The notes below the pieces were generated by a model. The model was given only the letters and a program-made list of their open reading frames with translations, ran no database searches and had not been told where the DNA came from. From Pusillibacter faecalis (lineage in GTDB: Bacteria > Bacillota > Clostridia > Oscillospirales > Oscillospiraceae), in the NCBI RefSeq assembly GCF_018408705.1, contig NZ_AP023420.1:2046001-2110000 (forward strand): a stretch of 64,000 nt of DNA, written 5' to 3'. Position 1 is the first letter of the stretch; each line of letters opens with the position of its first letter. Made by a program: the position numbers and the translations under genes. Shown piece by piece: positions 1 through 49,598 of the stretch.

Positions 1-1
1 C

Positions 2-1987
2 TATAAGATCAACCGGGCTGGCGACGACGCCGCAGGCCTCGCCATTTCTGAGAAGATGCGTGCCCAGATCACCGGCCTGGACGCCGCCCAGAAGAACGTG
101 AAGGACGGTATCTCCCTGGTGAAGACCGCCGAGGGCGCCATGCAGGAGGTCCAGGACATGCTCAACCGCATGGTCTACCTGGCCAACCAGTCCGCCAACG
201 GCACCTATGATAACGATGTGGACCGGGCCAACCTGCAAAAGGAAGTGGACTCTCTCCGCTCTGAAATCGACCGGATTGCGGATTCCGCCAACTTCAACGG
301 CATCCAGCTGCTGGACGGCTCTTTGAGCGACGGTTCTGTTAAGGCCGCCTATCAGAAGTTGGACGCCGCCGGCATCAAGGGCCTGCTGCTGCCTGAGGCC
401 GCTGGCGGAACCGCCGGCGTGGCTGGCACCAACACCCTGCTGGAGGCCGACAGCAAGACCAATCAGCTGCCCACCTTCTCCGTGGACCTGGACGGCATGA
501 GCCATGTCGTGGATACTCCCGGTACTGATACCTTTACTCTGGAAGTTGGCGGCCAGACTGTAAATGCCACCGGCGACGTACAGAATCTGGCCAAGGGAGA
601 CAAGCTGGACGCTAAAGCCCTGGCCGCCCTGTATGATGGCTCCACGGTCACCCTGGATGGTGTTGCTTACACCGCTAAGGTGGAGGGCTCCAAGATTGTC
701 TTCACTGCCGACAAGGCTGCTGACAAGGACATCAATGCCCACTATGACGTCAGCTTCGAGGGCGTGACCGGCAATACCGTGGCTGCCACGGCGGCTGTTT
801 ATACCACCGGTGCCCTGACTCAGACCGCGACTACCGGCGGCCAAGCAGCGACTGTCACCATTGAATACACCGACGCAGACGGCAAGACCCAACAGAAGGA
901 TGTGACCTTCAACAGTGGAACTTCTGCTGCTGATACCTTTAATGCCCTCAAGACTGCAATCGAGGCAGATGCCGACCTGAAGGATCTCTTTACCGTGGGC
1001 GGTAGCGATACGGCCGGTATGACTCTGACCGCAAAGACCGCCGGCGCCGATGCCCCCGCAGTCACCAACATCACTGTGAAGACTCCTGGTGGCGATACAG
1101 TCGCTATTGCCGCCGGCAATGCAGTTGACGGCGCGGACGCCTATACTACCGGCACAAGCGGAACCATCAATGTGGGCACCGTTAACGTGGTGGCCACCAA
1201 GGCCGGCGCTAAGGATCAGCTGGCTAACACGGTGCTGGATCTGGCCGGCAAGATGACCGACGGCACCCAGGTCACTCTGGGCGACACCACCTACACCTTT
1301 GCTGTGGGCAAGGACAGTGTGTTTGCGGGCGCGGAGAACGTCATTGACCTGACCCACCTCACCGGTGAGGAGGCTGACTTTGACGAACTGGCCGCCAGCA
1401 AGCTCACGGAGGCTGCCAAGGATAACGGTATCTTCTCTGTGGGCCATAAGGCCGGCGACGGCGGCAAGATCAGCCTCCAGCAGCTCCAGGCCGCCAAGGA
1501 CTCCACCGACATGACCACCATGGATAAGCTGGCGAGCTACATCGGCGTGTCCACCGTGGACGCTGCCAAGGGCGATCCCATCATGGGTACCGGCCTGACG
1601 CTGCAGATCGGCGACACCAGCGACGCGTGGAACCAGCTGAAGGTATCCGTGGAGGATATGCACTGCGCCGCCCTGGGCATTGCCAACGTGGATATCAGCA
1701 CCCAGGATGGCGCGGCCGAGGCCGTGAACGTGATCAAGGAAGCGATCAACAGCGTATCTATGACCCGTGGTACTCTGGGCGCCACCCAGAACCGTCTGGA
1801 GCACACCCAGAACAACCTCTCCGTGATGGAGGAGAACATCACCGACGCCGAGTCCACCATCCGCGACACGGACGTGGCCGAGGAGATGATGTCCTACACC
1901 AAGAACAACATCCTGATTCAGTCCGCTCAGGCCATGCTGGCCCAGGCCAACCAGGTGCCTCAGGGCGTGCTGCAGCTGCTGCAGTAA
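2..1987 (+). CDS. Flagellin (5' end outside the window)
   Basis: Structural protein of the flagellar filament, secreted by the flagellar type III system and assembled at the filament tip. The frame is open from base 2 with the typical N-terminal flagellin helix (KINRAGDDAAGLAISEKM), so the start codon lies upstream. The last ~100 residues are the conserved C-terminal D1/D0 helices (TRGTLGATQNRLEHT, ending in QGVLQLLQ). About 400 residues between these ends are Ala/Thr/Gly-rich and variable, as expected for the surface-exposed D2/D3 domains; the protein is long for a flagellin. Both ends are nearly identical in DNA sequence to the flagellin on the opposite strand at 44420-46066, whereas the middles differ. 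Its promoter cannot be seen. Confidence 0.96.
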   Translation, partial: YKINRAGDDAAGLAISEKMRAQITGLDAAQKNVKDGISLVKTAEGAMQEVQDMLNRMVYLANQSANGTYDNDVDRANLQKEVDSLRSEIDRIADSANFNGIQLLDGSLSDGSVKAAYQKLDAAGIKGLLLPEAAGGTAGVAGTNTLLEADSKTNQLPTFSVDLDGMSHVVDTPGTDTFTLEVGGQTVNATGDVQNLAKGDKLDAKALAALYDGSTVTLDGVAYTAKVEGSKIVFTADKAADKDINAHYDVSFEGVTGNTVAATAAVYTTGALTQTATTGGQAATVTIEYTDADGKTQQKDVTFNSGTSAADTFNALKTAIEADADLKDLFTVGGSDTAGMTLTAKTAGADAPAVTNITVKTPGGDTVAIAAGNAVDGADAYTTGTSGTINVGTVNVVATKAGAKDQLANTVLDLAGKMTDGTQVTLGDTTYTFAVGKDSVFAGAENVIDLTHLTGEEADFDELAASKLTEAAKDNGIFSVGHKAGDGGKISLQQLQAAKDSTDMTTMDKLASYIGVSTVDAAKGDPIMGTGLTLQIGDTSDAWNQLKVSVEDMHCAALGIANVDISTQDGAAEAVNVIKEAINSVSMTRGTLGATQNRLEHTQNNLSVMEENITDAESTIRDTDVAEEMMSYTKNNILIQSAQAMLAQANQVPQGVLQLLQ

Positions 1988-2208: not shown

Positions 2209-3033
2209 ATGGATATGAAAAATAATAGTACGGCGGGTATATTCACGCTGACGCTGACACAGGATCTGATCAATCAGTTTTTGGAGGCTCTCCGGGAAAA
2301 AGGAGTACGGGAAGGAACTCTGAAAACGTATCGACACCATCTGGAACAGCTGTATGACTATCTGCCTGAGGATAAGCAGATCGAACAGGACACGCTGGCC
2401 CAGTGGCGGGAGGAACTGATGCGCGGTGGCTATGCTGTCCGGTCCGCCAATATCAGTATTTCCACGGCCAATAGCCTGTTGGACTTCTGCGATAAGCGGC
2501 ATTTGCAGGGGCGGGTCGAAAAACCGGAACCCTATGTCAGGCCGGAACTGTCCCGAGGGGAATATCTGCGCCTTTTGCAGACCGCAAAAATCATGCGGGA
2601 TGAACGGGCCTATCTGCTGATCAAGGTTTTCGCCTGCACGGGTATGACGGTGCAGGAGCTTGTCTGCCTGAGCGTGGAGGCAGTTCAAAAGAAAAAGGTG
2701 GTCATTGCGCCGGGAGGCACTCGTCAGCTTTTGCATATCCCGGAATGTTTACAGGCAGAATTGCTGGAATATGCACAGAGAAATGGAATCCTATCCGGCC
2801 CAATTTTCCTTGCAAGAACAGGGCTTGTGATCAGGAGGAGCAACGTTGCCCGCATCCTGAAAAAGATATGCCATCATGCCCAGGTGGCGGAGGAAAAGGG
2901 AACTTCCACCTGCCTGCGGAATTTGTACCAGGCTACCATAGAGGGAATCTTGGGGAATATTGATCTGCTGGTGGAGCAGGCGCATGATCGCGTGATAGAA
3001 AAAGAACAGCTTACATATGGCTGGGAGGAATAA
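2209..3033 (+). CDS. Degenerate tyrosine recombinase-like protein
   Basis: A 274-residue protein with the layout of a phage-integrase family member: an N-terminal SAM-like core-binding domain (about residues 18-90, TLKTYRHHLEQLYDYL) and a C-terminal catalytic-like domain (about 110-270). Key residues look lost. The segment that normally reads TGxRxxEL is CTGMTVQEL, with Thr in place of the first catalytic Arg, and the HxxR box is TCLRNLYQA, with the His missing. A Tyr remains near the end (LTYGWEE). It may be an inactive DNA-binding derivative. It stands alone between flagellin and the late flagellar operon, facing the latter, and a strong hairpin follows it. The start is the ATG at 2209, or the ATG two codons later. 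The family is recognisable; the function is not known. Confidence 0.75.
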   Translation: MDMKNNSTAGIFTLTLTQDLINQFLEALREKGVREGTLKTYRHHLEQLYDYLPEDKQIEQDTLAQWREELMRGGYAVRSANISISTANSLLDFCDKRHLQGRVEKPEPYVRPELSRGEYLRLLQTAKIMRDERAYLLIKVFACTGMTVQELVCLSVEAVQKKKVVIAPGGTRQLLHIPECLQAELLEYAQRNGILSGPIFLARTGLVIRRSNVARILKKICHHAQVAEEKGTSTCLRNLYQATIEGILGNIDLLVEQAHDRVIEKEQLTYGWEE

Positions 3034-3289: not shown

Positions 3290-3529
3290 TCAGGGGGAAG
3301 ACGGTGGAGGGCCGCTCAACAGATCAAGCAAGGCGGCAGGGTCGGATTCCTCACGCGCAGAATCCTGATTGACAGCGGCGGCGGCAATCAGCTCACTGCG
3401 CAAAATGGGTACTTCCACCGGCGCAGAGATTGCCAGCCGCACACGGCCGCCCTCCACCGAAATGACAGAGATGGAAATATCGGAACCGATCATCACGGAT
3501 TCACCGGGCTTGCGCTGCAGGATCAGCAT
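3290..3529 (-). CDS. csrA: Carbon storage regulator CsrA
   Basis: Small dimeric RNA-binding protein that represses translation by binding GGA motifs around ribosome binding sites; in flagellated Firmicutes its main target is the flagellin mRNA and FliW is its antagonist. The 79-residue product begins MLILQRKPGE and keeps Leu4, Arg6 and Arg44 (PVEVPILRSEL), which form the RNA-binding face. After residue ~55 there is a 20-25 residue tail ending in a Pro/Ser stretch, slightly longer than usual. The start overlaps the 3' end of fliW by 7 bases, so the two are translationally coupled, as expected for regulator and antagonist. Confidence 0.95.
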   Translation of the reverse strand: MLILQRKPGESVMIGSDISISVISVEGGRVRLAISAPVEVPILRSELIAAAAVNQDSAREESDPAALLDLLSGPPPSSP

Positions 3530-3978
3530 GTCGCCGCCTCCTCCCCGCGGCCAAAGTCCGCCAGGGGATGCCGCATATCATAGGCTTCCGTCTCCATGAT
3601 AATCTGCCGGGCCTCGTTGGTTTTGGGGTTGATAACCACAGGACATTTTAAATTGACCGTGCTGGCTGCCACCGGGTTTTTCACCGCACACAGCACATAA
3701 AAGCACAAGGCACTTGTGTCCTCCGCAGCAAAAAGCTCCAGTTCCGTCTTTCGCAGTACGGGCGTATAGCTCGGACAAAGAGAGAAGGGGTCCAGCAGAA
3801 TGAAGGCTAGAGCGGGCGTGGCAGTGCTCTGCAGACACAGCATACTGTGCCCGCTGCCCTCAAAGGGGAGCAGCAGAAAATCGTGCTCGTCGTCAAAGCC
3901 GAACATTCCTGTCGGAAAGCGGATGACCTCCGAAGACTCATAGTCGATCTCACCAAAATATTTGGTTTGTAATTTCAA
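3523..3978 (-). CDS. fliW: Flagellar assembly factor FliW
   Basis: A 151-residue protein that binds CsrA allosterically and also binds flagellin. When flagellin is exported, FliW is free to sequester CsrA and flagellin translation resumes. The family signature is clear: MKLQTKYFGEIDYESSEVIRFPTGMFGFDDEHDFLLLP at the start and CPVVINPKTNEARQIIME near residues 115-130. The gene lies between the DUF6470 gene and csrA with a 7-base overlap into csrA, the standard Firmicute arrangement. Confidence 0.96.
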   Translation of the reverse strand: MKLQTKYFGEIDYESSEVIRFPTGMFGFDDEHDFLLLPFEGSGHSMLCLQSTATPALAFILLDPFSLCPSYTPVLRKTELELFAAEDTSALCFYVLCAVKNPVAASTVNLKCPVVINPKTNEARQIIMETEAYDMRHPLADFGRGEEAATC

Positions 3979-44419: not shown

Positions 44420-46066
44420 TTACTGCAGCAGCTGCAGCACACCCTGAGGCACCTGATTGGCCTGGGCCAGCATGGCCTGAGCGGACTGAATCAGGATGTT
44501 GTTCTTGGTGTAGGACATCATCTCCTCGGCCACGTCCGTGTCGCGGATGGTGGACTCGGCGTCGGTGATGTTCTCCTCCATCACGGAGAGGTTGTTCTGG
44601 GTGTGCTCCAGACGGTTCTGGGTAGCGCCCAGAGTACCACGGGTCATAGACACGCTGTTGATGGCCTTCTTGATTACATCGACTGCATCCTGTGCGCCAT
44701 CCTGGGTGCTAATGTCCACATCGGCAATGCCCAGAGCGGCGCAGTGCATATCCTCCACGGACACCTGCAGCTGGTTCCAGCTGTCGCTGGTGTCGCCGAT
44801 CTGGAGGGTCAGGCTGGAACCGGTCGTGGTCTTGGGCGTAACGGAAATCTGGTCCCGAACCAAGGCTTCGGTGCTCAGATCGTCCTTGTTGGTAGTCAGG
44901 CTCTGCAGGGTCAGCGTGCCGCCATTGTTACCAATGGTGAACACCGTGTTGGTGCCGCCAGCCTTGGTGATACGGTTGGCGATTTCGGCGACCTTGGTAT
45001 CGTCCAGCTTTCCGGTATCATCCAGCAGATCCTTTACGCCGATAGTAGTGCCCTGGGTGGTATCACTAGAATAATCAATCTTAAACTCCTGGTTACCGAT
45101 CTTAATCGTGGTGCCGTCAGCCAGCATATCGGTGGACAGCTTAAAGTCGGCGGTCGCCTGCGTGACAGTCTGCGCGGGCTTGCCGGCGGTAATAACCTGG
45201 GTAGCATCGTTGATGGTGCCCACACCAGTAGCGCCAGTGCCGGTCAGATTGCCAAGCTTCACCTCGAAGTCGGCTTTGGCGTCAGTCTCATTCTTGGGGT
45301 CAATATCAGCCGTAAAGGTCAGCTTGCTGCCACTGACCGCAGCAGTGTAGGTCACATCGCCGATCTTAACGGTCTTTCCGTTAAAGGCATTCGCGATAGT
45401 GTCAGAGTCAATCGTCTGATCTGCACCAAGGGTAATATCACCAGATGTCAGTGTTGCACCACCGATCTGCAGGCTCAGCGTACCATTGCCGGTACCAGTG
45501 CCATCCGTCTTGATCGTGTAGCCATCCAAATCAACGGAAAATGCGGGCTTTACCGCGGCGGTGGCGGTATTGTCCCGGATGGTAACATTCGTAACCGAAT
45601 TCGTAAGGTCAATGGGCGTTCCGCCAAGCGTGGCGCCATCCTTCAAAGAGCCGTCCAGCAGCTGGATGCCGTTGAAGTTGGCGGAATCCGCAATCCGGTC
45701 AATTTCAGAGCGGAGAGAGTCCACTTCCTTTTGCAGGTTGGCCCGGTCCACGTCATTATCATAGGTGCCGTTGGCGGACTGGTTGGCCAGGTAGACCATG
45801 CGGTTGAGCATGTCCTGGACCTCCTGCATGGCGCCCTCGGCGGTCTTCACCAGGGAGATGCCGTCCTTCACGTTCTTCTGGGCGGCGTCCAGGCCGGTGA
45901 TCTGGGCACGCATCTTCTCGGAAATGGCGAGGCCTGCGGCGTCGTCGCCAGCCCGGTTGATCTTATAGCCGGAGCTGAGCTTCTCCAGGTTCTTGCTGAG
46001 GGCAGAGGTATTGTTGTTGTAGTTCCGGTAGGCGTTCATCGCCATGATATTGTGCTGAATACGCAT
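44420..46066 (-). CDS. Flagellin
   Basis: Complete 548-residue filament protein. The N-terminus MRIQHNIMAMNAYRNYNNNTSALSKNLEKLSSGYKINRAGDDAAGLAISEKM and the C-terminus ending AQANQVPQGVLQLLQ are the D0/D1 helices; residues ~135-415 are a variable Thr/Asp/Gly-rich D2/D3 region. AAGGAGAT lies before the ATG at 46066; the longer frame to 46153 is rejected. DNA at both ends is nearly identical to the flagellin at the start of the window, inverted. No sigma-28-like promoter is evident in the 158 bases upstream, so it may be transcribed with the csrA-like gene. Confidence 0.97.
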   Translation of the reverse strand: MRIQHNIMAMNAYRNYNNNTSALSKNLEKLSSGYKINRAGDDAAGLAISEKMRAQITGLDAAQKNVKDGISLVKTAEGAMQEVQDMLNRMVYLANQSANGTYDNDVDRANLQKEVDSLRSEIDRIADSANFNGIQLLDGSLKDGATLGGTPIDLTNSVTNVTIRDNTATAAVKPAFSVDLDGYTIKTDGTGTGNGTLSLQIGGATLTSGDITLGADQTIDSDTIANAFNGKTVKIGDVTYTAAVSGSKLTFTADIDPKNETDAKADFEVKLGNLTGTGATGVGTINDATQVITAGKPAQTVTQATADFKLSTDMLADGTTIKIGNQEFKIDYSSDTTQGTTIGVKDLLDDTGKLDDTKVAEIANRITKAGGTNTVFTIGNNGGTLTLQSLTTNKDDLSTEALVRDQISVTPKTTTGSSLTLQIGDTSDSWNQLQVSVEDMHCAALGIADVDISTQDGAQDAVDVIKKAINSVSMTRGTLGATQNRLEHTQNNLSVMEENITDAESTIRDTDVAEEMMSYTKNNILIQSAQAMLAQANQVPQGVLQLLQ

Positions 46067-46224
46067 GATTTTGATCTCCTTATCTGTGTTTTCTGCGGGC
46101 GGCTGTTCCATGCCCTCCCGCCAGTTTGGGTGGAGCGCCGCCGCTTTCGGCATCCGGCCGGACTGCCTGAGATGCGGCGCATGGATCTATTTCAACCAGC
46201 TCGCGGGGCCGGGTGAAATCGGGG

Positions 46225-46653
46225 TTATTCGTTTGCCTCCGGGATGCCGTCCAGCCTGGCGCGAAGGGCGTCCAGGGTTTTCCGCAGGCCGTCCCGGTCG
46301 TGGGCTGGGGCCAGTTCATCCAGACGGGCGAGGATGCTCCGCAGCTCCCGGGTGACGGCGGCCTGTTCGGAAGCGGCACGTCTCCGCTCCGCCTCGGCAC
46401 GGCTGCGCTGCTCGGTTCGCTCCCGCAGGCGCTGGGCGTCCCGGGCCTGGGCGGAGGGGCTCTTGGGCCGCTTTTCTCGCAGCCCGCCGGGGCGCTCGCC
46501 GGTGCGTTCCAGGACCTCCCCCCGCAGGATGGGAATCTCCCGGGGTGCCTTCACAGCCACCCGAAAGGTAGAGCCGGATTCTTCAAAAATCTGGACGGCA
46601 ATCTCGTCGCCAATGGTGAGGTATTCGCCAGATTTCAGCTGCAACGAGAGCAT
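46225..46653 (-). CDS. CsrA-like protein with long charged C-terminal extension
   Basis: A 142-residue protein. Residues 1-50 (MLSLQLKSGEYLTIGDEIAV, then FRVAVKAPREIPILRGEVLER) follow CsrA strand by strand and keep Leu4 and Arg44, but Arg6 is replaced by Leu. Residues ~55-142 are a highly charged Arg/Glu/Ala helix, probably coiled coil, not present in normal CsrA (60-75 residues). It may be a translational regulator of the flagellin gene that starts 158 bases downstream on the same strand. It is a second paralogue besides csrA at 3290. AAAGGAGGT precedes the ATG at 46653. Just upstream lies the candidate invertible segment. Confidence 0.82.
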   Translation of the reverse strand: MLSLQLKSGEYLTIGDEIAVQIFEESGSTFRVAVKAPREIPILRGEVLERTGERPGGLREKRPKSPSAQARDAQRLRERTEQRSRAEAERRRAASEQAAVTRELRSILARLDELAPAHDRDGLRKTLDALRARLDGIPEANE

Positions 46654-46690
46654 GGGACCTCCTTTCCCGCGCATCCCTGCGCCATTCAAA

Positions 46691-46712
46691 TCGGAAATGT
46701 GTACGTTTCCGA
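46691..46712 (+). repeat. Left recombination site of the candidate invertible switch
   Basis: A 22-bp dyad: half-sites TCGGAAATGT and (reversed) TCGGAAACGT around a central GT at 46701-46702. It matches the site at 46807-46828 in inverted orientation, with a perfect 16-bp inverted repeat between the two (46699-46714 and 46805-46820). Confidence 0.72.
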
Positions 46713-46816
46713 AATGTTTTTTTCTCCGAAAAATTTCAGCTTCCCCTCTTAATTATGAGGGGCAAGCTGCCGATGAAAGAAATAGAACAGCAAGAGAACC
46801 TATTTTTCGGAAACGT
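46703..46816. mobile_element. Candidate invertible promoter segment
   Basis: About 114 bp between two inverted dyad sites, beside a serine recombinase gene. It contains a sigma-28-like promoter pointing in the plus direction in this sequence and a weak hairpin (CCCCTC/GAGGGG, 46743-46762). Inversion would turn the promoter towards the csrA-like gene at 46653, with its -10 box about 90 bases upstream. The arrangement is that of flagellar or fimbrial phase switches; activity is inferred. Confidence 0.6.
46750..46776 (+). promoter_or_regulatory. Sigma-28-like promoter inside the invertible segment
   Basis: TAATTATG (46750-46757), 11 bases, GCCGATGA (46769-46776). The -10 matches the consensus GCCGATAA in 7 of 8 positions; the -35 keeps the TAA start but is otherwise weak. 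In the present orientation it faces the 3' end of the recombinase gene, antisense to it. Confidence 0.5.
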
Positions 46817-46828
46817 ACACGTATCCAA
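46807..46828 (-). repeat. Right recombination site of the candidate invertible switch
   Basis: Half-sites TCGGAAACGT and (reversed) TTGGATACGT around a central AC at 46817-46818, which reads GT on the minus strand. It ends 11 bases from the recombinase stop codon. The opposite polarity to the left site predicts inversion, not deletion. Confidence 0.72.
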
Positions 46829-46839
46829 AAATGACCGGT

Positions 46840-47646
<807 letters not shown>

Positions 47647-47650
<4 letters not shown>

Positions 47651-47775
47651 GTTGCTCCTTCCAAATGTCGTTCCTGCCCGGTTCCCTCACCCGGCGCAGT
47701 CCGGCCTGCCCTCCAGACGATGAGCTGCTTGTCGGGCGTCACGGCGGCGCGGACGGGTCCCATTTGGACGGTCAT
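47647..47775 (-). CDS. Micro-ORF (42 residues), first of the recombinase chain
   Basis: MTVQMGPVRAAVTPDKQLIV followed by WRAGRTAPGEGTGQERHLEG and AT. Its stop overlaps the start of the next micro-ORF (ATGA). A TACAAT box on the minus strand (47807-47812) could be a -10, but no convincing -35 is visible and the ribosome binding site is poor. No known family. Confidence 0.42.
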
Positions 47776-48160
47776 GAGGGGAGCTCGTGGGACTTGCTGC
47801 TCCTATATTGTAGCGGAAAAATACGTCCACGCTTGTGCATCCAGAAGAATCAAAACAACGTCCGAACAGCAAGACGCTGAAAAATTGGCAACAGAGATGG
47901 GTGCCGCCTTCGGAAGGGATGAAAGACCCGCGGACAGAGTGCGCCGGAGCGGCAGCGGTCGTCGCTCCAAGGCCTTGCTGGGGGAGCGGGGAGGATTGCA
48001 AGAGCCTCTTTCGTGCGGTCACACTGACACAGTTTTATGTGTTTTATCTCATGGACCGACAAAAATCACTCACATACAGAGCCTGATGCGCTGCATATGA
48101 GTGAGGCATGATCGGGACGGAAGAGAGAACGCTTCTCTTCACTTTTTTGAACAGCAGGAT
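47776..48160. other. Intergenic region between micro-ORFs and the riboflavin operon
   Basis: Divergent spacer of about 385 bp before the rib promoter. No gene is supported; only the weak -10-like TACAAT on the minus strand near 47810 was noted. Confidence 0.5.
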
Positions 48161-48189
48161 TGACAAGCGGCTGTCTATCGTATATACTA
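48161..48189 (+). promoter_or_regulatory. Sigma-A promoter of the riboflavin operon
   Basis: TTGACA, 17 bases, TATACT; 15 bases before the FMN riboswitch. Confidence 0.85.
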
Positions 48190-48203
48190 ACCGCAATTGA
48201 ATC

Positions 48204-48312
48204 AGGATCTTCAGGGCGGGGTGTGATTCCCCACCGGTGGTAAAGCCCACGAGCCGCAAGGCATGATTCGGTGAAATTCCGAGGCCGACAGTACAGTCTG
48301 GATGGAAGAAGA
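48204..48312 (+). promoter_or_regulatory. FMN riboswitch (RFN element)
   Basis: The conserved RFN landmarks are all present in order: AGGATCTTCAGGGCGGGGTG, ATTCCCCACCGGTGGTAAAG, CCCACGAGCC, ATTCGGTGAAATTCCGAGGC, CGACAGTACAGTCTGGATGG and AAGAAGA. It binds FMN and shuts down rib genes at high flavin level. It lies just after the promoter and before a terminator hairpin. Confidence 0.97.
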
Positions 48313-48356
48313 TCGTGTATCGCAGGGATATAGATTCCTGCGTGTATGTGATTTGC

Positions 48357-48387
48357 TCTGGAATGATGTCATTCCAGAATTTTTTGT
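48357..48387 (+). terminator. Riboswitch-controlled terminator
   Basis: TCTGGAATGA pairs with TCATTCCAGA, followed by AATTTTTTG. It is the expression platform of the FMN riboswitch. A second hairpin follows at 48443-48469. Confidence 0.88.
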
Positions 48388-48442
48388 TTCCGCGGGACAC
48401 GCGGAGAAAGTCACTGCACGCGGGTTCACCTGCCGTTTCATG

Positions 48443-48469
48443 ATGCCTTGAACGTTCTGTTCAAGGCAT
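48443..48469 (+). terminator. Second hairpin in the rib leader
   Basis: ATGCCTTGAAC pairs with GTTCAAGGCAT, followed by TTTGTCTGTTT, ending 12 bases before the ribD ribosome binding site. It could be a backup terminator or control translation initiation. Confidence 0.6.
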
Positions 48470-48491
48470 TTTGTCTGTTTGGAGGCAAGTC

Positions 48492-49598
48492 ATGAAAGAC
48501 AGCGACTATATGCACATGGCGCTGGAACTGGCGAAGCGGGGCCAGGGCTGGACAGCCCCCAATCCTATGGTGGGAGCGGTGATTGTCAAGAGCGGCCGCG
48601 TCATTGGACAGGGGTATCACCGGCGGTGCGGCGGACTGCACGCGGAACGGGAGGCCCTTGCCTGCTGCGGGGAATCCCCGGAGGGCGCCACATTGTATGT
48701 GACGCTGGAACCCTGCTGCCACGATGGAAGGCAGCCGCCCTGCACGGATGCGATTTTGGAGGCTGGAATTTCAAGAGTCGTAGTCGGCTCAGACGACCCG
48801 AATCCCTTGGTGGGGGGGAAGGGCTTGTGCATCCTGCGCCGGCGCGGTGTGGAAGTGGAGACAGGGGTGGTGAAGCAGGAATGCGACGCGCTGAACCAGG
48901 TGTTCTTCCACTTCATGAAGACCCGGCGGCCTTACGTGGTCATGAAGTACGCCATGACGTTGGACGGCAAGACCGCTACCCGTACCGGAGCATCCCGGTG
49001 GATTACCGGGGAGGAAGCACGGCGCCGGGTTCATCAGGACCGGCACCGCTACTCCGCTATTATGACGGGCATCGGGACAGTGCTGGCGGACAATCCCCTG
49101 CTGACCTGCCGGATGGAGGGTGGCAGGAATCCTGTCCGCGTTATTTGTGACACCCGGCTGCGGACGCCTTTGGACAGCAAGATCGTCCGCACAGCCCGGG
49201 AGGTCCCCACCATCCTGGCCACCGCCTGCGGCGACGTGTTGAGACACGCACCCTATGAGAAAGCCGGCTGCCGGGTCTGGACCCTGCCGGAGCGGGAAGG
49301 CCATGTGGATTTGCCGGCCCTGATGGAGCGGCTGGGCGGAGAGAACATCGACAGCGTACTGCTGGAGGGCGGCGGCACGCTGAACTGGGCGGCGTTGGAG
49401 AGCGGAACTGTCCAGAAGGTCCAGGCCTATGTCGCCTCGAAGCTCTTTGGCGGAACAACGGCAAAGTCTCCGATCGGCGGTCTGGGGGTCGGACTCCCGG
49501 ACCAGGCTGTGCAGCTGAAAAATACCATGATCACCAGGATCGGAGAGGATTTTTTGCTGGAAAGCGAGGTGGCGGCAGATGTTTACAGGGATGGTTGA
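48492..49598 (+). CDS. ribD: Bifunctional riboflavin deaminase/reductase RibD
   Basis: Deaminates and then reduces the pyrimidine intermediate in riboflavin synthesis. The 368-residue protein has a zinc deaminase domain (about 1-145; AEREAL and PCCHDGRQPPCTDAI with the Zn ligands) and a reductase domain (about 146-368; KYAMTLDGKTATRTGASRWITGEEARRRVHQDRHRYSAIMTGIGTVLADNPLLTCR). GGAGG lies 8 bases before the ATG at 48492; the upstream start is rejected. Overlaps ribE by 20 bases. Confidence 0.96.
   Translation: MKDSDYMHMALELAKRGQGWTAPNPMVGAVIVKSGRVIGQGYHRRCGGLHAEREALACCGESPEGATLYVTLEPCCHDGRQPPCTDAILEAGISRVVVGSDDPNPLVGGKGLCILRRRGVEVETGVVKQECDALNQVFFHFMKTRRPYVVMKYAMTLDGKTATRTGASRWITGEEARRRVHQDRHRYSAIMTGIGTVLADNPLLTCRMEGGRNPVRVICDTRLRTPLDSKIVRTAREVPTILATACGDVLRHAPYEKAGCRVWTLPEREGHVDLPALMERLGGENIDSVLLEGGGTLNWAALESGTVQKVQAYVASKLFGGTTAKSPIGGLGVGLPDQAVQLKNTMITRIGEDFLLESEVAADVYRDG

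Follow-up and report, generated by a model that had tools for sequence, protein, structure and literature searches.

In Salmonella, the Hin-fljBA system combines a serine recombinase, short inverted sites and inversion of a promoter with a flagellin that is co-transcribed with a repressor, FljA, which blocks translation of the other flagellin's mRNA. Two other proteins matter for the comparison made here, namely TldR, which is a nuclease-dead TnpB, and RecV, which is a tyrosine recombinase. In gut commensals, hin genes with inversions of ~120 base pairs (bp) carrying a FliA promoter are found upstream of csrA-tldR flagellin loci (Nat Microbiol 2026, PMC13418256), and in Clostridioides difficile a flagellar switch involving RecV, for which Rho is named as mediator in the title of the report, lies upstream of flgB (PMC7446863); these papers, and PMC2784873 below, are cited from the available part of their text.

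Here we describe a locus of this kind in Pusillibacter faecalis, found in a stretch of 64,000 nucleotides (nt) of contig NZ_AP023420.1 (positions 2,046,001 to 2,110,000, forward strand), referred to as the window and numbered from its first letter. It consists of a small serine recombinase gene, a 114-bp segment with a FliA (sigma-28)-type promoter, an extended csrA gene (csrA2) and a second flagellin gene (fliC2), and it is very probably a Hin-like invertible FliA-promoter switch which stands in the OFF position in the sequenced copy. The kind of module is already known, having been described in 2026 (PMC13418256): as far as the available text goes, the two share a hin-like recombinase, a segment of ~120 bp with a FliA promoter just downstream of hin, and a linked csrA and flagellin gene behind it, the inversion itself being seen here in relatives only, and they differ in that no TldR lies between the segment and fliC2 and none was found in the genome. 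The available part of that paper makes no mention of a TldR-less form, and full-text literature searches returned no other paper describing this module, judging by titles and the beginnings of abstracts.

A further likeness to Hin-fljBA is that a flagellin would share its transcript with a putative repressor of its counterpart; here, however, the recombinase lies outside the segment, the segment measures 114 bp and the proposed repressor is a CsrA. DNA inversion governing flagella in a clostridium is shared with the RecV switch (PMC7446863), which acts upstream of the flgB operon, whereas the present locus would act upstream of one flagellin and the recombinase adjoining it is of the serine and not the tyrosine type.

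Structure of the switch

The segment (46703-46816) is bounded by two 22-bp dyads, TCGGAAATGTGTACGTTTCCGA on the operon side (46691-46712, centre GT at 46701-46702) and TCGGAAACGTACACGTATCCAA on the recombinase side (46807-46828, centre AC at 46817-46818). These are inverted repeats of each other with 19 of 22 positions identical, are palindromic in themselves at 9/10 and 8/10 positions, and contain four half-sites which, read from the sequence, all fit TYGGAWAYGT, exactly as a preliminary description of this DNA had given them, base for base. With up to three mismatches allowed, the dyad pattern matched only these two sites in the window, both exactly, and nothing in 100 shuffles; genome-wide it matched one extra place at three mismatches, and since a backward-pattern control gave an equal match count, the pattern at three mismatches lacks genome-wide specificity. 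Dyad pairs of at least 18/22 were absent from 20 simulated windows, and the pair in the window thus exceeds chance. The right-hand site pattern, scanned in viral contigs, gave no matches and no second copy of the P. faecalis locus.

The recombinase gene (46840-47454, minus strand, 204 amino acids; hin in related loci) ends 11 bp from the adjacent site and its product matches PF00239 (2.4e-29). Its nearest solved chain is 2r0q (2.6e-27), which is entered under Tn552 DNA-invertase bin3, although further chains of this protein are entered as Sin; after Sin/Tn552 Bin3 come resolvases and then DNA-invertase 3uj3 (1.9e-15). Ser15 and IDRLGR are invariant across 15 aligned sequences. The locus has two features of a Hin/Gin-type system, a small serine recombinase with a catalytic serine (PF00239, Ser15) and two dyads in inverted order with a matching 2-bp centre (GT/AC, 19/22).

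The promoter, TAATTATG-N11-GCCGATGA, lies on the plus strand (TAATTATG at 46750-46757, GCCGATGA at 46769-46776) and faces the recombinase, away from csrA2-fliC2; it would depend on FliA. The pattern TTANTTNT-N11/12-GCCGATNA, composed after both places had been seen, has two occurrences in the 3.4-megabase genome, one inside the segment and one ahead of the other flagellin gene, and its backward control has none. An inverted repeat of 12 pairs with a 1-nt bulge surrounds the -35 element (46737-46769), and the corresponding 55-nt RNA has a predicted fold of -20.7 kcal/mol. By arithmetic, inversion would bring the -10 element to 46743-46750 on the minus strand, with the csrA2 start (46653) 90 bp beyond it, and the fliC2 start (46066) would lie 677 bp from that element. 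Outside the segment, no good FliA site was found between it and fliC2, the best candidate scoring 7.8 and the segment itself 10.6, with scoring strings that differed slightly between the two, and a search of 46100-47000 showed no sigma-70-like promoter. The preliminary description had reported a sigma-28-like promoter pointing away from the csrA-like and flagellin genes and no other good promoter upstream of the flagellin, and both statements hold; its distance of about 90 bp after flipping applies to csrA2, and not to the start of fliC2 itself.

The operon is on the minus strand and begins 37 bp from its site with csrA2 (46225-46653, 142 amino acids), whose product has a CsrA domain in residues 1-50 followed by ~90 more residues (PF02599, 1.4e-14). 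After a further 158 bp comes fliC2 (44420-46066, 548 amino acids; PF00669, 1.4e-42; PF00700, 4.1e-27). The recombinase, csrA2 and fliC2 are all intact open frames.

Orientation of the segment in related loci

Related recombinases are common in Clostridia and few in other Bacillota, the best 80 listed being 66-82% identical. In 57 of 118 rows a strict test, which demanded matching centres, found a matched dyad pair no more than 600 bp past the recombinase; in some rows the contig ends inside this 600-bp span, and one locus was entered twice (L046 = L054). The later search for pairs added a little to the score of matching, non-palindromic centres. A csrA match was present at 32 loci, of which 26 were tabulated (25 relatives and the window). 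Those excluded were L169, which is the L190 locus, L188, L191 and L200, which had no convincing site pair, and L203 and L204, which had neither a recombinase match nor a convincing pair; L201 and L202, where the full recombinase is not within the stretch, and L198, whose contig stops before the flagellin, were retained though incomplete, and for L105 the pair from the strict matched-centre test replaced the top pair of the later search.

A FliA-like site scoring at least 9 was present in 25 of the 26 segments, compared with 10% of shuffled segments, the score being flattered by -35 strings that include ones first seen in these loci. Eight loci are ON (L054, L101, L105, L187, L189, L190, L194 and L198) and 18, including the window, are OFF. 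Site centres match within the pair at all 26 loci and are a palindromic AT in seven of them; consequently the GT/AC polarity, which the preliminary description had taken as the one expected for inversion, is present here and is not a rule of the family.

Three loci, L098 (Flavonifractor sp. An306, OFF), L105 (Candidatus Flavonifractor merdavium, ON) and L190 (genome G270, ON), have flanks that align directly, with 86-87% identity over 200 bp on the recombinase side (86% for L098 against either of the others) and 81-88% over 80 bp on the operon side (L098 against L105 88%, against L190 82%). The OFF segment of L098 is only 53% and 50% identical to those of L105 and L190 in direct alignment, as opposed to 81% and 83% when reversed, while the two ON segments are 82% identical to each other directly. 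Two TldR-less loci of one genome (G064), L194 (ON) and L195 (OFF), likewise have segments that are 48% identical directly and 81% reversed, and for the pairs L187/L201, L072/L101 and L101/L193 the values are 70-72% reversed versus 56-57% direct. These inversions were observed between homologous loci, by comparing assemblies and not reads within one strain.

Because homologous loci are found in either orientation, the comparison speaks for a FliA promoter that can be inverted and that stands OFF here. Inversion within the csrA-linked family is well supported by these alignments, and from this we infer that the segment would also invert in the present strain. The ON/OFF flagellin phase switch of the preliminary description, with the sequenced copy OFF, gains support from the same observation, and the single orientation in all relatives that it had named as evidence to the contrary was not what their loci contained. 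That the dyads serve as operators, by which the recombinase or some other protein would control transcription without inversion, seems very improbable: the dyads do sit in the transcription path, and a terminator-like scan picked up one of them (46691-46712) with no signal above chance (1 found, 1.6 expected), but homologous segments in both orientations between directly aligning flanks largely refute this explanation for the relatives.

Some observations nevertheless speak against an invertible promoter at this locus. The -35 element (TAATTATG) is imperfect; seven orientation calls (L072 at 8.4; L193 at 9.0; L189 and L196 at 9.2; L045, L075 and L101 at 9.6) lie near the level reached by 10% of shuffled segments; and each relative is a single assembly in a single state, this species being represented by one genome.

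A number of further loci were noted in the course of the comparison. L191, L196, L199 and L202 have a short recombinase-like stretch (39-49% identical, ~96-120 codons) between the segment region and csrA. L038 has two dyad-bounded segments (187-342 and 1044-1199) near one recombinase, the dyads at 187/321 and 321/1044 matching in inverted order at 22/22 positions and those at 1044/1178 at 19/22. At L062, L066-L069, L076 and L079-L082, among others, recombinases of the same family are accompanied by dyad pairs separated by 125-156 bp; neither csrA nor a flagellin was matched in the stretch examined there, and mostly there is no strong FliA-like site. These loci are candidate members of a larger family of switches with short invertible segments. 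The P. faecalis genome itself has a second recombinase of the family (78%; G000:C1:1365781-1366371, loci L034 and L205), behind which come a dyad pair (18/22, with CT at the centre) and a 1261-amino-acid protein with three S-layer homology stretches; by eye, its segment carries TTGAAA-N17-TATACT facing the recombinase, making it a second candidate switch, likewise OFF.

A predicted split hairpin across the recombination site in relatives

In 16 of the 26 loci the segment end downstream of the promoter can pair, with a complementarity score of at least 5, with the flank just beyond the operon-distal site, as compared with 0, 2 and 0 loci for the other three flank/end pairings and 2% of mismatched loci. 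The complementarity is found at 12 of the 18 loci now OFF and at 4 of the 8 now ON, in the latter with the arm at the far end, so that a hairpin across the recombination site would form only in the OFF state. It is often followed, by eye, by T-rich sequence. Predicted RNA folding averaged -25.7 for OFF and -17.8 for ON (Wilcoxon p 0.002, an optimistic value given approximate constructs and related loci), ON being more stable at 7 of the 26 loci, the window included. In the window the OFF hairpin failed, with a score of 3 and predicted folds of -15.8 (OFF) and -16.5 (ON) kcal/mol.

A precedent for the relatives' hairpin is the C. difficile cwpV switch (PMC2784873), whose authors propose that an intrinsic terminator forms, in the OFF state alone, where repeat and segment meet; in the part of the text available, the cwpV promoter lies outside the segment, whereas in the csrA loci the promoter lies inside and the hairpin is operon-distal. 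The relatives' split hairpin suggests selection on termination besides promoter direction.

The absence of this hairpin from the window also fits a relic, in which sites and promoter persist while this lineage is fixed in the OFF state and fliC2 is silent, as do the single orientation in this genome and the imperfect -35. Such a relic is nonetheless unlikely, being at odds with the intact frames of all three genes and with sites that are still palindromic (9/10 and 8/10) and matched in their GT centres.

Absence of TldR

The cassette has no TldR and the window no room for one, given the 37 bp between site and csrA2 and the 158 bp between csrA2 and fliC2; a search with the L072 protein found none in the P. 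faecalis genome at an expectation value (E) of 1e-3 or of 1e-20. We therefore class the locus as a TldR-less variant and not as a csrA-tldR locus, the term covering loss of TldR and original absence alike. Among 16 genomes searched at E 1e-20, a relative was found in nine and none in seven (G000, G015, G311, G088, G064, G089 and G130, all listed as at least 91% complete).

Four TldR loci (L054, L059, L190 and L200) carry next to the cassette a sequence that agrees at 14 or 15 of 16 bases with the beginning of a different flagellin gene, as guides would, single 14/16 matches being at the noise level of the scan; the best matches of the window are 14/16 and fall, by translation, in genes other than fliC1, the main flagellin gene. 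In the recombinase tree the window is one of 14 members, 10 of them csrA-linked, of a group whose support is weak (81/80), and no well-supported set contains it. A single origin of the csrA-linked recombinases was not supported, as they do not form one clade and the tree has 11 changes, seven of them forced by well-supported branches.

The fliC2 leader and neighbouring genes

The leader of fliC2 contains a conserved hairpin (46181-46227, minus strand; about GGTTTCA..CCGGCTGACGAGCCGG.TGAAATA), which is the single match of model R1 in the genome (150 of 1323 first-look candidates scored). Among 30 cassette leaders, picked by eye, 26 have it, starting ~140-185 nt ahead of the flagellin; R1 adds L188, L194, L199 and L198, in the last of which the contig ends before the flagellin, and misses L055. 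Covariation is modest, both sides being changed in 2 of 9 pairs. A function as TldR guide scaffold was rejected, as guide-like matches sit elsewhere (L054 and L059 have them in the tldR-csrA gap, L190 and L200 immediately ahead of the hairpin), and specificity to cassette flagellins was given up in view of weaker matches in the solo leaders L218, L226, L232 and L234. Comparing 45900-48500 with Rfam, with E allowed up to 1, gave no match for the hairpin and only a flavin mononucleotide (FMN) riboswitch (48203-48317, plus strand; RF00050, E 9.1e-27), which lies before genes resembling, by eye, riboflavin synthesis genes.

Two flagellins in the genome are above the Pfam cut-off. The 3' part of fliC1 occupies 1-1987 (plus strand), the gene starting 98 bp before the window; it has a FliA promoter of its own and a leader with an 8-bp hairpin whose loop is AAGGAG. 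Directly after it, near fliW, a protein with a phage-integrase SAM-like N-terminal domain is encoded at 2209-3033 (plus strand). The canonical csrA (3380-3529, minus strand; domain match) overlaps at its start the end of fliW (3523-3978, minus strand; PF02623, 8.9e-32), and because it adjoins fliW, csrA2 is the second csrA copy in the genome.

Proposed mechanism and flagellin choice

In the mechanism we propose, the serine recombinase (46840-47454) would pair both dyads and invert the 114 bp between them. In the OFF state the FliA promoter would fire toward the recombinase and csrA2-fliC2 would be silent; in the ON state csrA2 and fliC2 would be transcribed together by FliA, FliC2 would join the filament, and CsrA2 may bind the fliC1 mRNA leader hairpin, CCGGACAA-AAGGAG-TTGTCCGG, and block translation. 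The published CsrA result together with the fliC1 leader suggests that ON cells would make FliC2 and CsrA2, the latter blocking fliC1, and the likely output would be an alternation of flagellins. The switch on a flagellin put forward in the preliminary description is thus supported, with the correction that its first target would be the extended csrA2 with the flagellin behind it, so that flagellins may be exchanged rather than only added. That CsrA2, rather than the canonical CsrA, represses fliC1 is the least sure step, weakly supported, and we regard the chances as about even.

The fliC1 hairpin is of a strong CsrA type equalled by none of 100 shuffles; the best hairpin of the fliC2 leader has 4 bp, is equalled by 21 of 100 and does not resemble that of fliC1. 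Hairpins at -45 to -49 form a class found, by eye, in 7 of 10 leaders of solo flagellins and 1 of 20 leaders of csrA-linked ones (Fisher 0.0004), where L212, L214 and L231 had been moved to the linked set owing to cassette or TldR neighbours. An action of CsrA2 on fliC1 is countered by the fact that this class was picked after looking, making the Fisher value post hoc, by the equal frequency of strong GGA hairpins in csrA-linked (9/17) and solo (7/13) leaders, and by the presence of the canonical CsrA-FliW, which could own the fliC1 hairpin.

The segment may instead invert merely to add FliC2 to the filament, with CsrA2 tuning its own operon and leaving fliC1 alone. This would agree with a fliC1 hairpin equally suited to the canonical CsrA-FliW (3380-3978), with the divergent and extended nature of CsrA2 and with the strong GGA hairpins of many cassette flagellin leaders themselves, but less well with the confinement of the strong hairpin in this genome to fliC1. 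The equal GGA-hairpin frequency and the post hoc class led us to raise our estimate for this alternative, which is now plausible if rather doubtful, and to lower that for a protein-only flagellin exclusion switch, which we put forward tentatively, at somewhat less than an even chance. In such an exclusion switch, a flip would yield FliC2 and a dedicated extended CsrA that silences fliC1 at its leader hairpin, alone replacing the CsrA and RNA-guided TldR of the sister loci, and in many relatives the promoter would switch together with a two-way, terminator-like split hairpin, to whose outer stem segment and flank each contribute one half.

In conclusion, the locus would be a compact flagellin switch for which nature offers two designs, one that includes an RNA-guided repressor and one that does not, so that the contribution of TldR may be read by comparing sister loci. 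Flagellin identity bears on motility, phage adsorption and host sensing.
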